Of a stretch of 27,910 nt of DNA, positions 1,960 to 27,910 are shown piece after piece; the first letter of the stretch is position 1, and each line of letters starts with the position of its first letter. The DNA lies in the IMG/VR virus record IMGVR_UViG_3300043464_000655, positions 1 through 27,910 of that record; one strand, 5' to 3'. This DNA comes from a virus. The notes beneath the pieces were generated by a model, which was given only the letters and a program-made list of their open reading frames with translations, did not search any database and was not told the DNA's origin. The position numbers and the translations under genes were made by a program.

Positions 1960-3403
1960 AGGTGATGAGGTCTCAGACTTCATAGATGCCCTATGCATTC
2001 AGACTAAAGATACTGTCGCTGGTAGAGCTGGTGACCGTATCCTGCTACGTAATTGGCAGCGAGAATTATTAACTCACATATTTGCAGTACGACCTGATGG
2101 TCAGCTAAGACATAGAACTGCCCTAGTAGGTATGGCTCGTAAGAACGGTAAATCGGCTATGTCATCAGGTATCGCACTATGGGGTTTATTTATGGGTGAG
2201 CCTGGGTCAGAGATTTATTCCTGTGCTGCTGATAGAGATCAGGCACGTATCGTATTCGGTGATGCTAAGAGAATGATTGAGGCTGAGCCTGAGATGATGG
2301 AGCAGGCTAAGTTATATCGTGATGCGATAGAGATACCGTCACTCGGATCTGTGTATCGTGTGCTCTCATCTGAGGCTTTCACTAAAGAGGGTCTATCCCC
2401 AACTTTGGTCGTATATGACGAATTACATGCTGCACCTAATCGTGAGCTGTTCGATGTTATGACATTAGGTATGGGTGCTAGACGTGAACCGTTACTCCTA
2501 GCGATTACTACGGCTGGTGTTAAGACTGATAACACAGGACAGGACTCAGTGGCATACAACTTATATCAGTACGGTCAGCGAGTGGCTAAGGGTGAAACTG
2601 ATGACCCATCATTCATGATGGCATGGTGGGAATCCCCTATAGATGCAAACCATCGCAGTCACGACACGTGGGCTATGGCAAATCCAGCATTCGGTGATCT
2701 TAACAGTGTCGAGGATTTCGAATCAGCTGTAAAGAGGACACCTGAAGCAGAGTTTAGAACGAAGCGCACTAATGCGTGGGTGTCCAGTAATCAGGCATGG
2801 TTACCATCTGGCACATGGGATGCTAGAGCTGAACTGAGAGAAATACAGCCAGATACTGAAGTCGTGCTGGGATTCGATGGATCATTTTCAGGTGACGCAT
2901 CAGTAATAGTAGGAGTAACTATAGAGGAACAACCTCATGTTTTCTTAGTAAAAGCGTGGGAGAAATCACCGAACGACAGAGACGACTGGCGCGTGGACAC
3001 TTCTGAAGTGGAATCAGAAATCATCTTGGCGTGTAATAAATATAAAGTGCGTGAGGTCGCATGCGATCCATTTAGATGGCAGAGATCCATGCAGGTGCTA
3101 CAGGATGTAGGTATTCCGATAGTTGAGTGGCCATCGACATCAGCAGCAAGAATGATTCCTGCTTGCGCTAAGTTTTATGACGCTGTGGTGCAGGAGAAAC
3201 TGACACATGATGGTGACCCATTATTAGCACGTCATATCTCTAATGCTGTCATAAAGACCGATAGACTAGGGCCACGTATAGTAAAAGAACACAGAGGTTC
3301 ACCACGCAAGATAGATGCTGCAGTTGCTAGTATTATTGCATTTGACAGAGCAACAGCATCTCGCAACGAGGTGGAGCAACCTGTCCCAGATTTCTTTATG
3401 TAG
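1880..3403 (+). CDS. terL: Terminase large subunit
   Basis: The 507-aa packaging motor couples ATP hydrolysis to DNA translocation into the prohead and cuts the concatemer. The ATPase domain shows a deviant Walker A, GMARKNGKS (84-92), as in many HK97-type TerL proteins, and Walker B LVVYDE (176-181). A coupling-type ITTAG follows at 209-213. The RNase H-like nuclease domain shows the expected acidic residues: D333 in GFDGS, D396 in ACDPF and D479 in KIDAA. The length is normal for the family. The start is GTG 1880, which lies 80 nt inside terS. It is kept because the resulting N-terminus (SWPPRWLTPIP before RGDEVSDFI) looks like family members and no later ATG or GTG precedes the conserved block. 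The next small gene follows after 9 nt. Confidence 0.95.
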   Translation: MPEQKRPESWPPRWLTPIPQQDLIASRGDEVSDFIDALCIQTKDTVAGRAGDRILLRNWQRELLTHIFAVRPDGQLRHRTALVGMARKNGKSAMSSGIALWGLFMGEPGSEIYSCAADRDQARIVFGDAKRMIEAEPEMMEQAKLYRDAIEIPSLGSVYRVLSSEAFTKEGLSPTLVVYDELHAAPNRELFDVMTLGMGARREPLLLAITTAGVKTDNTGQDSVAYNLYQYGQRVAKGETDDPSFMMAWWESPIDANHRSHDTWAMANPAFGDLNSVEDFESAVKRTPEAEFRTKRTNAWVSSNQAWLPSGTWDARAELREIQPDTEVVLGFDGSFSGDASVIVGVTIEEQPHVFLVKAWEKSPNDRDDWRVDTSEVESEIILACNKYKVREVACDPFRWQRSMQVLQDVGIPIVEWPSTSAARMIPACAKFYDAVVQEKLTHDGDPLLARHISNAVIKTDRLGPRIVKEHRGSPRKIDAAVASIIAFDRATASRNEVEQPVPDFFM

Positions 3404-3412
3404 GGAGTTTCA

Positions 3413-3553
3413 TTGTTAGCCACTGTCGCACAAGCGTTAGGGTTATTAACTATCTCAGCTGGTATTACCTGGATTTATGCTCCAGCAGGGTTAGTCGCAT
3501 TAGGTATCAGCATCACAATATTTGGTTTAGCCATCGAGCGTGGTAACAAATAA
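3413..3553 (+). CDS. Small two-helix membrane protein
   Basis: This 46-aa product starts with TTG at 3413, five nt after a GGGAG ribosome-binding site (3403-3407). Nearly the whole chain is hydrophobic: one segment runs from about LATVAQALGLLTISAG through WIYA and a second from GLVALGISITIFGLAI, ending in the charged ERGNK. The short PAG turn between them suggests a hairpin of two membrane helices. Its stop overlaps the portal ATG (TAATG), so it is likely translated and coupled to portal synthesis. Small membrane proteins are found between terminase and portal in several actinophages, but their role is unknown. A holin-like or membrane-anchoring role for head assembly is possible and not shown. 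Confidence 0.6.
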   Translation: MLATVAQALGLLTISAGITWIYAPAGLVALGISITIFGLAIERGNK

Positions 3554-4911
3554 TGCTGTCACGTTTATTTAATAACAATATAGAAAGTCGTAATATCTCA
3601 TTCCAGTCCATCTGGGGTGCAGGTGACACTTTTGCATTTACTACTGAGGCTGGCACACCGATAGATGAAAATACTGCGATGCGTATCAGCGCGTTCTACG
3701 CTGCTGTGTTACTTATCTCAGACACCATATCCACATTACCTGTGGACTCATTTATTCGTAGAGATGGTAATCGTGTCCCATATCGACCACGACCTGAATG
3801 GGTTCAGAAACCAGACGTTGATTTATTAAGATCAGAGCATTATCAGCAAGTACTGATTTCATTATTATTAGACGGTAACTCATTTACACGTATCTATCGT
3901 GACAGCAGAGGCGATATTCAAAACTTAGTTGTCTTAGATCCTATGCGTATCACTGTGCGTAGAAATCCTGACACACGTGAAATCGAATATGTACTAGATG
4001 ACTCTAATCAGGCAGTCATATCTAAAGACGACATGATACAGATTACTGAAATGCGTAAGCCTGGTGCGCTCAGAGGCTTATCACGTGTATCAGAATTAAA
4101 AGATAATCTTGGTCTAGCATCAGCACTGCAATCATTCGCAGCACGCTTCTTTGGACAGGGTGCAACTGTGCAGGGCATCATCGAGTTCCCTGGTCAGCTG
4201 ACACGTGAGCAGGCAACTAATCTGCGCGATAACTTTGATATCTCTCATAAAGGGTTTAGAAAATCACACAAGACTGGTGTCTTATCTGGGGGTGCTAAGT
4301 ACACTAAAACTGGTACAGCTCCTGACGAAGCACAGATGCTGGAGTCTAGAAAGTTAGCATTTGAAGAAATAGCACGTGTGTTTAGAATCCCACCTCACAT
4401 GTTAGGAATCACAACGCCTGGTGCTATGAGTTACGCATCAGTTGAGCAGAACAATATTAACTTCGTAGTTCATACACTTAGACCATATATAGAGAAAATA
4501 GAACAGGCATACAGCGCATTATTACCAACTGATGCTTTTCTTAAATTTAATGTCGATGGGTTATTACGTGGTGATTACACAACACGTATTCAGGGATACT
4601 CTATCGGTCTGCAAGCAGGATTCTATTCAGTTAATGATGTGAGACGCTTCGAGGATTTAAGACCAGTAGATCAGGGTGACCAGTTCAGAGTTCCATTAGC
4701 GAATATAAATATCGTGGATGCTGAGGTCGTGGAGCAGTCTAAGAAAGTCGAAATGGCACAACGCCTAGTCATGGTTGGTTACGATCCTGCACAGGTATTA
4801 GCAGCATTAGAGTTACCTGCTATCACTCACACAGGTCTACCATCCACACAGCTACAACAGGTCGTGCAGATAGATCCAGAAAATCCTGAATCAGTTTATG
4901 AGGTCAAATAA
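3553..4911 (+). CDS. Portal protein (HK97 family)
   Basis: This 452-aa protein forms the dodecameric ring at one capsid vertex through which DNA enters and leaves. It has the HK97-type portal order: the N-terminal block GTPIDENTAMRISAFYAAVLLIS, the AVLLISDTISTLP stretch with PRPEWVQKP after it, LLLDGNSFTRIYRD, and the later ARVFRIPPHMLG with the conserved SYASVEQNNINFV. The EEIARVFRIPPHML/EQ region is the most diagnostic. The length is close to the family norm. The start overlaps the small membrane gene as TAATG, and the stop TAA overlaps the next ATG. The C-terminal 60 residues, after VPLANINIV, are variable tail sequence. Confidence 0.93.
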   Translation: MLSRLFNNNIESRNISFQSIWGAGDTFAFTTEAGTPIDENTAMRISAFYAAVLLISDTISTLPVDSFIRRDGNRVPYRPRPEWVQKPDVDLLRSEHYQQVLISLLLDGNSFTRIYRDSRGDIQNLVVLDPMRITVRRNPDTREIEYVLDDSNQAVISKDDMIQITEMRKPGALRGLSRVSELKDNLGLASALQSFAARFFGQGATVQGIIEFPGQLTREQATNLRDNFDISHKGFRKSHKTGVLSGGAKYTKTGTAPDEAQMLESRKLAFEEIARVFRIPPHMLGITTPGAMSYASVEQNNINFVVHTLRPYIEKIEQAYSALLPTDAFLKFNVDGLLRGDYTTRIQGYSIGLQAGFYSVNDVRRFEDLRPVDQGDQFRVPLANINIVDAEVVEQSKKVEMAQRLVMVGYDPAQVLAALELPAITHTGLPSTQLQQVVQIDPENPESVYEVK

Positions 4912-24486: not shown

Positions 24487-24738
24487 ATGGGTCTATTAGA
24501 TGATTTAGACAAAGTAAAAAATACTAAAACTTATCGCAATAAGATATGCGCTGTAGAAAGATTACTAGCAAAATTACAACCAGCTGAGGCTGTAAAAGTG
24601 GCAAAAGCCATAGATGACCCTGAGTACCAGATATCGCTACTTTTTAAAGTGTTTAAAGATCATGGGTACGAGATCACAGCATCATCGCTTTATCGTCATC
24701 GCAGACGACTGACGCATGGTGGCTGTATATGTCCTTAA
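24487..24738 (+). CDS. Small helix-turn-helix DNA-binding protein
   Basis: This 83-aa protein is chosen from ATG 24487, which avoids overlap with the nuclease gene; ATG 24454 is an alternative. It is all helical: YRNKICAVERLLAKLQPAEA, VKVAKAIDDPEYQISLLFKV, then the recognition-type HGYEITASSLYRHRRRL. A helix-turn-helix ending in a basic HRRR stretch and a C-terminal HGGCICP tail is typical of a small protein that precedes the metallophosphoesterase-like gene in several actinophages. The two genes overlap by 10 nt here, so they probably act together. I do not know a tested function. Confidence 0.62.
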   Translation: MGLLDDLDKVKNTKTYRNKICAVERLLAKLQPAEAVKVAKAIDDPEYQISLLFKVFKDHGYEITASSLYRHRRRLTHGGCICP

Positions 24739-25508
24739 TAGATGACATAGAGAACGCATCAACTGAGGACTTAAAAGATAAACAAAAGCCCTGGGCTGAA
24801 ATCGGTCTTGATGGTGGACAGATATACACAGGCGTTCTTGACACACCTATCGCAGATGACTGGTCACCCATTCTAAGAGGATTCGGTCTAGACCCAGATG
24901 TGTTTGAGGTCGTAGGCGATCAGGTCAAAATGTCTAAGTGGCAACAGTCTAAAAGAACTGAATCTGGTGATCGTGACATCGTATGGTTGTACGCATACAA
25001 GGCAATATTTAGACGTAAATTAGCGTCAGCTGTAAGTCAGATAGATATAGATGAGATTAGAAAATCTATTCGAGCATGGAAACCCACACGTAAAGTCAAG
25101 GATTCAAAAGAGCCACCTAGTACCTTTGTGGTGCTGTGGGCTGACTGGCAGTTGTATAAATCAGCTAGTGGTGGAGTTAAGGCTACGACTGAGCGTGTAC
25201 TGAAATCGTTTGATGCGACTGTGAATCGTGTTAATGATTTAAGAAAATTAGGCAGAAATATTGAGAGCATAGCCATAGTTAATATGGGTGATCCTATAGA
25301 GGCATGTGATGGTCATTACGCATCTCAGCTGTTCAGTGTTCAGGGTGGTCTGCGTGATCAGTTACGATTAGCACTGGATTTGTGGACTAGAGGTGTGAGT
25401 GTGATAGCACCATTAGCTGAGCATGTGAGTTTCATATCGTGTATCAGTAATCATGGTGAGTGGCAGAGAAAAGGTAACAAATCAGCTACGACTGATAGTT
25501 CTAGCTGA
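24729..25508 (+). CDS. Metallophosphoesterase-like protein, N-terminal part
   Basis: These 259 residues carry the first half of a calcineurin-like phosphoesterase/nuclease. WADWQLYKS (about 137-145) is the first metal motif in the D-x-Q form seen in phage relatives, VNMGDPIEACDGHY is the GDxxE motif, and ISNHGEW is the GNHE-like motif. The frame stops at TGA 25506-25508, just after SATTDSSS, which is before the remaining metal-binding motifs. Those are found at once in the +1 frame (25453-25917). On its own this part cannot form a complete active site. Either a +1 frameshift, a real gene split or a sequence/assembly indel near 25,498-25,508 is needed. It overlaps the small HTH gene by 10 nt. 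Confidence 0.75.
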   Translation: MSLIDDIENASTEDLKDKQKPWAEIGLDGGQIYTGVLDTPIADDWSPILRGFGLDPDVFEVVGDQVKMSKWQQSKRTESGDRDIVWLYAYKAIFRRKLASAVSQIDIDEIRKSIRAWKPTRKVKDSKEPPSTFVVLWADWQLYKSASGGVKATTERVLKSFDATVNRVNDLRKLGRNIESIAIVNMGDPIEACDGHYASQLFSVQGGLRDQLRLALDLWTRGVSVIAPLAEHVSFISCISNHGEWQRKGNKSATTDSSS

Positions 25509-25917
25509 TGCACTGCAGCGTGTTGTCGGTGATTCTGGTCTAGTTAATGATTGGTATATCCCTCATGATGAGATGGTTATGCAGGCTGAGTTATCTGGTG
25601 TGCAGTGCGCTTTCACGCATGGTCATAAAATGCAGGGCAAAGAATTAGAGTGGTTACGTGGTCAGTCACTGAAACAGCTAAAAGTTAGTGGGATGGAACC
25701 TGAGATATGGTACACAGCTCACCGTCATCATTTGAAGATGACAGATTATGGTGGCATCACAGCATTCCAGTGTCCATCTATGGATACTGATGGATCTCCT
25801 AGTGGTGGCAGTAAATGGTATTCCGACTCACAGGCTGTCTGGTCTAGTCCTGGTGTGCTCACTATGCTGGTGGGGCATCATGATGATAAGAAGTGGAGCG
25901 ATTTAGCAGTCTTATGA
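25453..25917 (+). CDS. Metallophosphoesterase-like protein, C-terminal part (+1 frame)
   Basis: This 154-aa frame holds the missing half of the phosphoesterase: ADALQRVVGDSG, then AFTHGHKMQGKELEW (a GH metal-ligand motif) and WYTAHRHHLKM (the GHxH-like last motif), then GGSKWYSDSQAVWSS. It lies +1 relative to the upstream frame. Joining across the TGA by skipping one base gives DSSSDALQRVV, with no residues missing by eye. The listed start (ATG 25453) lacks a good ribosome-binding site, which argues for a fused product or a broken gene rather than independent translation. The stop overlaps the MazG-like ATG (ATGA). The combined protein of about 395 aa would be of usual size. Confidence 0.72.
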   Translation: MVSGREKVTNQLRLIVLADALQRVVGDSGLVNDWYIPHDEMVMQAELSGVQCAFTHGHKMQGKELEWLRGQSLKQLKVSGMEPEIWYTAHRHHLKMTDYGGITAFQCPSMDTDGSPSGGSKWYSDSQAVWSSPGVLTMLVGHHDDKKWSDLAVL

Positions 25918-26762: not shown

Positions 26763-27059
26763 ATGAGAGAAGCGATAGATAGAGATGTGGTGCTGACTAA
26801 TTATCAGCAGACATCGTTAGACTCTGCGCATAAGTTATTACCTAAGTCAGGTAGTAAGCGTAGAAAGATTTATGACCTGATACAGGAATCTGGTGTATTA
26901 GGTTTATGTGATCATGAAATCGAGGAGATTACAGGCTGGAAGCATCAGACTGCATCTAGTAGTCGATGTGGTCTAGTTAAAGATGGTTGGGTGACCGACT
27001 CTGGAATGAAGCGACTAACTAATGATGGGAATAAGGCGATAGTTTGGATAGCAATCTAA
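26763..27059 (+). CDS. Small winged-helix DNA-binding protein
   Basis: This 98-aa protein is preceded by AAAGGGG (26750-26756), six nt before ATG. The C-terminal two thirds are a winged-helix pattern: SGSKRRKIYDLIQESG, LCDHEIEEITGWKHQTAS with a recognition-helix SSRCGLVKDGW, and the wing VTDSGMKRLTNDGNKAIVWI. Phage proteins of this type near a methyltransferase gene often regulate it or bind its target. Its last 16 nt overlap the methyltransferase gene. Regulation of the methyltransferase is inference from position. Confidence 0.68.
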   Translation: MREAIDRDVVLTNYQQTSLDSAHKLLPKSGSKRRKIYDLIQESGVLGLCDHEIEEITGWKHQTASSSRCGLVKDGWVTDSGMKRLTNDGNKAIVWIAI

Positions 27060-27910
27060 CTGCAGTGAGTTTATTTGCAGGTATCGGTGGCTTCGACTTA
27101 GCACTCAGTAATGCAGGTGTAAGAGTATGTGCATCTGTTGAGATAGATAACAAATGCAGAGATGTGCTAGCACGGCATTTCCCTGAAACAAAACTATTTA
27201 GCGACATTAAGGATGTAACAGGTGAGCAACTCAGAGCAGCAGGATTTATTCCCGAACGAGGAATCATTACAGCTGGATTCCCATGCCAAGACCTCAGCGT
27301 TGCAGGACTGCGTAAGGGTTTGGCTGGAAGCAGATCTGGACTTTTCTGGGAAATCATACGACTGGTCGATGAAACACAGCCGAGATATCTCATCATTGAG
27401 AATGTCGCTGGACTCCTGTCATCGCAGTCAGGAAGAGATCTGGGCATCGTCATCGAAGCGTTGGTTGAACGCAGGTATGGCATCGCCTGGCGTGTGCTGG
27501 ACTCTCAGTACTTCGGAGTACCACAGCGCCGCAGACGTGTCTTTATTGTCGCAAGTCTTGGAGACCACAGAAGTCCAGTCCAAATATTATTTGAGCCAGA
27601 AAGCCGCACAGGGCATCTTGAACCGAGCACAAAGGAGAAACAAAAAACTACCCGAGTATCTGTACAAAGCACTGATGTCCATACTTTCACAAAATCCAGA
27701 CGAGCATCCTCAGACACCGATTACGAGACCTGGGTCGAGTCAGACATAACACCAACACTAAATCAGTTCGATATAGCTGACACCAGGACTACCACGATAA
27801 TTACAGAACCACAGCTATTTGACGCAACTCGTAATGCTGATGTCAGATTTTATAATCAGTCACCTACCATGAAAGCGCGTTGGGGTACTGGTGGTAATAA
27901 TGTGCCAATG
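27044..27910 (+). CDS. C5-cytosine DNA methyltransferase (3' truncated by window end)
   Basis: The window holds 289 codons of a Dcm-type enzyme that methylates cytosine at C5. Motif I is FAGIGG (11-16), motif IV is GFPCQ with catalytic C81, motif VI is ENV (119-121) and motif VIII is QRRRR (161-165). After VFIVASLGD comes ILFEPESRTGHLEPS and a long specificity region with DITPTLNQFD and TMKARWGTGGNNVP. The last motifs (IX, X) must lie beyond the edge. I take TTG 27044 as start: it gives MDSNLTAVSLFAGIGG, has AAGG seven nt upstream, and an in-frame stop lies 12 nt earlier. GTG 27065 would cut into the first strand. It would modify phage DNA against host restriction. A long +1 frame lies inside it (27222-27749). 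Confidence 0.92.
   Translation, partial: MDSNLTAVSLFAGIGGFDLALSNAGVRVCASVEIDNKCRDVLARHFPETKLFSDIKDVTGEQLRAAGFIPERGIITAGFPCQDLSVAGLRKGLAGSRSGLFWEIIRLVDETQPRYLIIENVAGLLSSQSGRDLGIVIEALVERRYGIAWRVLDSQYFGVPQRRRRVFIVASLGDHRSPVQILFEPESRTGHLEPSTKEKQKTTRVSVQSTDVHTFTKSRRASSDTDYETWVESDITPTLNQFDIADTRTTTIITEPQLFDATRNADVRFYNQSPTMKARWGTGGNNVPM
27222..27749 (+). CDS. Overlapping +1-frame ORF inside the methyltransferase gene
   Basis: A 175-codon frame with GTG 27222 lies wholly inside the methyltransferase gene in the +1 frame. Its second half reads WLNAGMASPGVCWTLSTSEY, then SLLSQVLETTEVQSKYYLSQ and KAAQGILNRAQRRNKKLPEY. From memory, similar strings (SLSxVLE, then YYLSxKAxxGILRRAxRRGKxLP) occur as annotated phage proteins, some without a methyltransferase call. 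I cannot search to confirm this. The same DNA in the methyltransferase frame gives ILFEPESRTGHLEPSTKEK. No good ribosome-binding site precedes GTG 27222, so the start is doubtful; later in-frame ATGs at 27369 and 27402 are alternatives. It may be overprinted coding or only a long shadow. Confidence 0.4.
   Translation: MSNSEQQDLFPNEESLQLDSHAKTSALQDCVRVWLEADLDFSGKSYDWSMKHSRDISSLRMSLDSCHRSQEEIWASSSKRWLNAGMASPGVCWTLSTSEYHSAADVSLLSQVLETTEVQSKYYLSQKAAQGILNRAQRRNKKLPEYLYKALMSILSQNPDEHPQTPITRPGSSQT

Follow-up and report, generated by a model that had tools for sequence, protein, structure and literature searches.

A conserved overlapping frame in phage C5-cytosine methyltransferase genes probably encodes a subunit of a naturally split enzyme

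In the C5-methyltransferase M.EcoHK31I, the gene for the small chain is nested within the gene for the large chain and is read in another frame. The enzyme consists of two polypeptides; the large chain contains motifs I to VIII and X, and the small chain contains motif IX (PMC3404938). M.AquI also consists of two chains (PMC3404938). In the present study, we analyzed a phage methyltransferase gene (alpha) with an overlapping gene (beta) in the +1 frame, and compared the arrangement with these systems.

The window, that is, the whole stretch of DNA that was analyzed, is a complete IMG/VR contig of 27,910 bases from a tailed phage (terminase, head protease, and tape measure). The alpha product matches PF00145 (4e-53) and TIGR00675 (2e-52), and the presence of motifs I, IV (PCQ), VI (ENV), and VIII (QRRRR) identifies it as a C5-cytosine methyltransferase. 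The contig ends before the TRD, motif IX, and motif X of alpha. A relative with the whole gene (locus L008, with 89-91% identity to the window in both proteins) encodes motifs I-VIII, the TRD, motif IX (RRLTPTECERLQAFPDGW), and motif X, all in frame 0, together with a +1 beta. A first-pass annotation of the window had pointed to a 175-codon +1 open reading frame (ORF) within the methyltransferase gene; this ORF exists at 27222-27749 with a GTG start, and its segment SLLSQVLE..KYYLSQKAAQGILNRAQRR is indeed the +1 reading of the bases coding for VFIVASLGD..EPSTKEK. The features of the locus are as follows.

27044..27910, + strand: alpha, C5-cytosine DNA methyltransferase, motifs I-VIII; frame 0, open at the window end
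27209..27213, + strand: AAGGA, Shine-Dalgarno-like, 8 bases 5' of the beta GTG
27222..27749, + strand: beta, overlapping gene, 175 amino acids and stop, GTG start; +1 relative to alpha
27222..27539, + strand: N-terminal part of beta, overprinted on alpha motifs IV-VIII; open, with moderate synonymous constraint, weakly conserved residues, and QQDLF near the start
27281..27289, + strand: alpha motif IV PCQ, with the catalytic cysteine
27521..27544, + strand: alpha motif VIII PQRRRRVF; the conserved beta core begins here in +1
27540..27674, + strand: beta core in +1, SLLSQVLETTEVQSKYYLSQKAAQGILNRAQRRNKKLPEYLYKAL; matches a segment found in frame, after motif VIII, in Dcm-like enzymes

Elsewhere in the window, two overlapping ORFs (24729-25508 and 25453-25917) match residues 35-256 and 280-384, respectively, of the exonuclease family phrog_284, and this pair reflects either a frameshift within the gene or an error of assembly.

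The consensus of the beta core is LSxILE..KYYLSxKAxxGILxRA, and Escherichia coli Dcm and other single-chain enzymes have a matching segment in frame just after motif VIII. With Dcm-like enzymes as the unsplit controls, the beta-core profile was aligned to Dcm 309-338 by hhalign (P 9.6e-8, E about 1e-7, probability 94%, over about 30 columns only), and the beta-core HMM matched nine of 11 ordinary enzymes, in each case after motif VIII. Among 62 phage-type alphas, no meaningful HMM match to the core was found, and the hhalign probability was 0.1%. Thus, the segment is missing from alpha and present in beta. The first-pass annotation had suggested an accessory protein born from the methyltransferase gene; since the core matches a segment that is in frame in ordinary enzymes, the product is better called a displaced piece of the enzyme, i.e. 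a subunit, than a de novo accessory protein.

Searches with beta itself gave no match for a profile of nine betas against PDB and no family in Pfam and NCBIfam. AlphaFold2 modelled beta alone with a confident helical hairpin at about residues 121-156 only (mean pLDDT 64, pTM 0.37), and Foldseek found nothing in PDB for this model; the low predicted confidence outside the hairpin would be anticipated if beta folds on a partner protein, but does not prove that it does. When a virtual fusion of L041 was searched against PDB, only motifs I-VIII and IX-X were aligned, and the core remained unaligned. Four loci (L091 and L092 from Vibrio phages, L093, and L094) were single-piece tblastn matches of a virtual fusion and were considered as unsplit ancestors, yet they keep the +1 ORF and therefore are not ancestors. 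The +1 ORF of the two Vibrio phages is diverged, with WRLSTKALDGILRRERETNTPLPLSL, which suggests a further beta lineage.

Across the phages, the enzyme parts are distributed between the frames in four types of layout.

Type A (window, L008, L006, L048, P1-like phage RCS47, clostridial phages): alpha has motifs I-VIII, TRD, IX, and X (alpha of the window is cut); beta is the overprinted N-terminal part and the core
Type B (L010, Lucky2013): alpha ends shortly past motif VIII; TRD-IX-X is on a third ORF
Type C (L025, L070): beta reaches motif IX (RRLTPxECERLQGFPDGW); alpha keeps X
Type C (L041): beta carries motifs IX and X; both are absent from alpha
Type D, EcoHK31I-like (L049, L054, L056, L068, L086, others): beta is the N-terminal part, TRD, and WVEWLMGFPxGW; alpha has motifs I-VIII and X, without motif IX

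Because beta carries enzyme motifs in types C and D, a subunit role is the simplest reading for beta in types A and B as well. In RCS47 (L005, gene dmt), alpha contains an intein-like insertion after its catalytic cysteine (PC..HNCQ); the insertion lies upstream of the beta start, and thus beta is uninterrupted. In Mycobacterium phages Thibault (L137) and Constella (L138), an HNH-endonuclease cassette is found right after motif VIII (about 2998-3620), with no intron detected by Rfam at the insertion. In the N-terminal half of their alpha the +1 frame is full of stops, and the beta core survives downstream as a small ORF. In Thibault this ORF is gp104, an 81-aa protein labelled hypothetical and near-identical to the core of Lucky2013, and it supplies the stand-alone +1 homologue by which the first-pass annotation proposed to judge the frame.

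One alternative is that beta is an independent accessory protein, e.g. a regulator, an anti-restriction factor, or a sliding-clamp tether, which merely shares the gene. The survival of the core as a separate ORF in Thibault is consistent with this, as is a QxxLF-like motif near the beta start (QLDLF/QLTLF/QMELF-like; QQDLF at 27237-27251 in the window), which was found in 18 of 81 loci, some of them closely related, against 0.6 expected from frame 0. This motif resembles the one by which bacterial proteins bind the sliding clamp. However, the methyltransferase segment matched by the core is missing from alpha, motif IX is on beta in the sister loci, and beta was always alongside a methyltransferase in the examined records, and we consider an independent accessory protein improbable.

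The best explanation for the locus, with its two overlapping genes on the same strand, is a naturally split C5-cytosine methyltransferase, of which beta is probably a subunit made by its own initiation. Frame 0 would make alpha, with motifs I-VIII followed by the TRD, IX, and X as in L008, and beta would be made from the +1 ORF through its own GTG and the Shine-Dalgarno site inside alpha. The beta core would then be the interdomain segment that ordinary enzymes have directly after motif VIII and that alpha lacks. Most likely, beta docks on alpha at the boundary of the catalytic and recognition domains and completes the enzyme in trans; we infer that beta is produced in vivo, that it associates with alpha, and that methylation depends on it. 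The conserved +1 frame, its boundaries, the match of the core, the lack of the core in alpha, and motif IX on the sister betas were all shown in the present analysis and support the split enzyme. Furthermore, phage SpSL1 has a beta ORF within its methyltransferase gene and methylates its DNA at RCGRC (PMC6755750), and thus a locus of such layout makes an active enzyme.

Viral loci were collected so that the +1 frame played no part in the choice, with 80 taken for frame-0 similarity alone. When eight loci retrieved previously and the window were added, motif VIII could be identified in 84. To obtain the number of stops expected in +1, synonymous codons were resampled so that the frame-0 protein stayed unchanged. 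The interval is open by definition and the loci are related, so that the following counts represent effect sizes and not independent probabilities: over the 84 loci, 308 stops were expected from the beta start to motif VIII and 143 after motif VIII in beta, and none was observed in either part (the mean expectation per +1 ORF was 5.4), whereas upstream of the beta start in alpha 445 +1 stops were seen against 356 expected. The beta start is thus a sharp 5' boundary of the open +1 stretch. In addition, Shine-Dalgarno-like 5-mers are enriched 5' of the beta starts (40 of 81 loci, 21.3 +/- 3.5 expected).

These results bear on a second alternative, in which ribosomes on alpha shift by +1 after motif VIII, and the resulting fusion of alpha and the core is the working enzyme. 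A virtual shift after motif VIII does give motifs I-VIII and the core in the canonical order (followed by TRD-IX-X in L041). However, the +1 frame is open for about 100 codons before motif VIII in spite of the 308 expected stops, the synonymous constraint described below starts at the beta start, and the Shine-Dalgarno sites are enriched there; a frameshift fusion needs none of these, and they count against it. Frame 0 is also without a stop near the junction. Programmed frameshifting is thus very improbable, and initiation at beta itself is preferred.

For the window, 9.5 stops were expected in the beta ORF and none was seen, and none of 1000 resamples was open; therefore, chance is excluded for this ORF. 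In homologues, the first-pass annotation would have taken scattered +1 stops as a sign of a shadow, but +1 is open across motif VIII in all 84 loci, with a median of 164 codons against 29 for +2. The tblastn search with beta gave 211 phage records, none more than 60% identical, and in the first seven beta records examined (Mycobacterium, Streptococcus, P1-like, Clostridia, and others) beta was always +1 in a methyltransferase. The two protein patterns named in the first-pass annotation are both real, and in many phages a single stretch of DNA gives both, each in its own frame.

Synonymous differences in the alpha frame were scored as observed/expected, with the expectation taken from codon usage. 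The ratios before, inside, and after beta were 0.93, 0.66, and 0.92 for the window type, 0.93, 0.58, and 0.95 for the clostridial type, and 1.00, 0.75, and 0.99 for the EcoHK31I-like type, and the minima were just 3' of motif VIII (0.20, 0.13, and 0.18, respectively). The reduced synonymous variation that had been proposed as a check is thus present in the window type, both inside the ORF and at the core. After motif VIII, the beta reading was more conserved than the alpha reading in 152 of 153 and 91 of 91 pairs (243 of 244). When 56 codons of phage Lucky2013 were used as the query, the beta reading retrieved 128 phage records of many taxa, whereas the same codons read as alpha, the matched control, retrieved 19 records, 17 of which were from Mycobacterium phages.

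A shadow ORF, open and similar in +1 only through the conserved methyltransferase protein and its codon usage, is scarcely tenable. Frame 0 does account for some of the N-terminal +1 similarity (SHAKTS/SPARTS from FPCQDLS), and before motif VIII the conservation of the beta residues does not exceed that of the +2 shadow. However, the expected stops are absent, the +1 frame of ordinary methyltransferases is open across motif VIII for short stretches (12-104 codons), and this reading is already refuted by the synonymous constraint, which is bounded exactly by the ORF, and by the frame comparison after motif VIII, where +1 outdoes frame 0. Selection preserves both frames in many unrelated phages, and the methyltransferase segment is almost certainly under conserved dual coding. 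The proposal of conserved overprinting rather than a chance ORF is therefore borne out with respect to dual coding under selection, but only the approximately 105 beta residues upstream of the core look like genuine overprinting, kept open with a sequence no better conserved than the +2 shadow, and the core is better regarded as a displaced enzyme segment.

Long same-strand overlaps under double selection have rarely been demonstrated in prokaryotes. The present overlap occurs repeatedly, in phages that infect Mycobacterium, Streptococcus, Lactococcus, and gut Clostridia, in P1-like phages, and in others, and in most records a single frame is annotated. Should beta be a required subunit, phage methyltransferases that were cloned or tested in its absence may have been judged inactive, and the layouts in which the segment, motif IX, and motif X move between frames provide a natural series for the evolution of split enzymes and overlapping genes. 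A more speculative proposal, which we regard as rather unlikely, is that the supply of the hinge segment in trans from an overlapping gene defines a large, mostly unannotated class of obligately two- or three-part phage methyltransferases, and that in a subset the small subunit, with its sliding-clamp-like QLxLF, couples methylation to replication.

An overlapping two-polypeptide C5-methyltransferase is already known in M.EcoHK31I. Our literature search found no paper on the window-type beta, which provides the interdomain segment and lacks motif IX, or on how widely this form occurs among phages. Both kinds of beta are present in the PHROG families 16143 and 1008, which appear to consist of second-frame proteins. 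These families are labelled 'DNA methyltransferase', and this label omits the origin in an overlapping second frame and the absence of catalytic motifs I-VIII. ORF14 of Streptococcus phage MM1 is annotated in exactly the frame of beta, inside ORF13. The single-chain Dcm and M.EcoRII-like enzymes share with our locus the post-motif-VIII segment that matches the beta core; however, it is in frame in Dcm and in +1 on a separate protein here. With M.AquI, the locus group shares a natural split after motif VIII, and L010 and Lucky2013 also have TRD-IX-X on a separate ORF, but these two have a third overlapping chain, beta, in between, and the M.AquI-type division (large chain to motif VIII, small chain with IX and X) is not that of the window type, since motifs IX and X of L008 are still part of the frame-0 protein. 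M.EcoHK31I, with M.EaeI, is alike as a two-polypeptide C5-methyltransferase, and its layout is common to L049, L054, L056, L068, and L086. As in M.EcoHK31I, a nested gene in another frame, here under selection, is present in the window. In L025, L070, and L056, motif IX is on the small subunit and missing from the large one; in contrast, the window-type beta ends after the interdomain segment, without motif IX, and L008 has the TRD, motif IX, and motif X in frame 0 of alpha.
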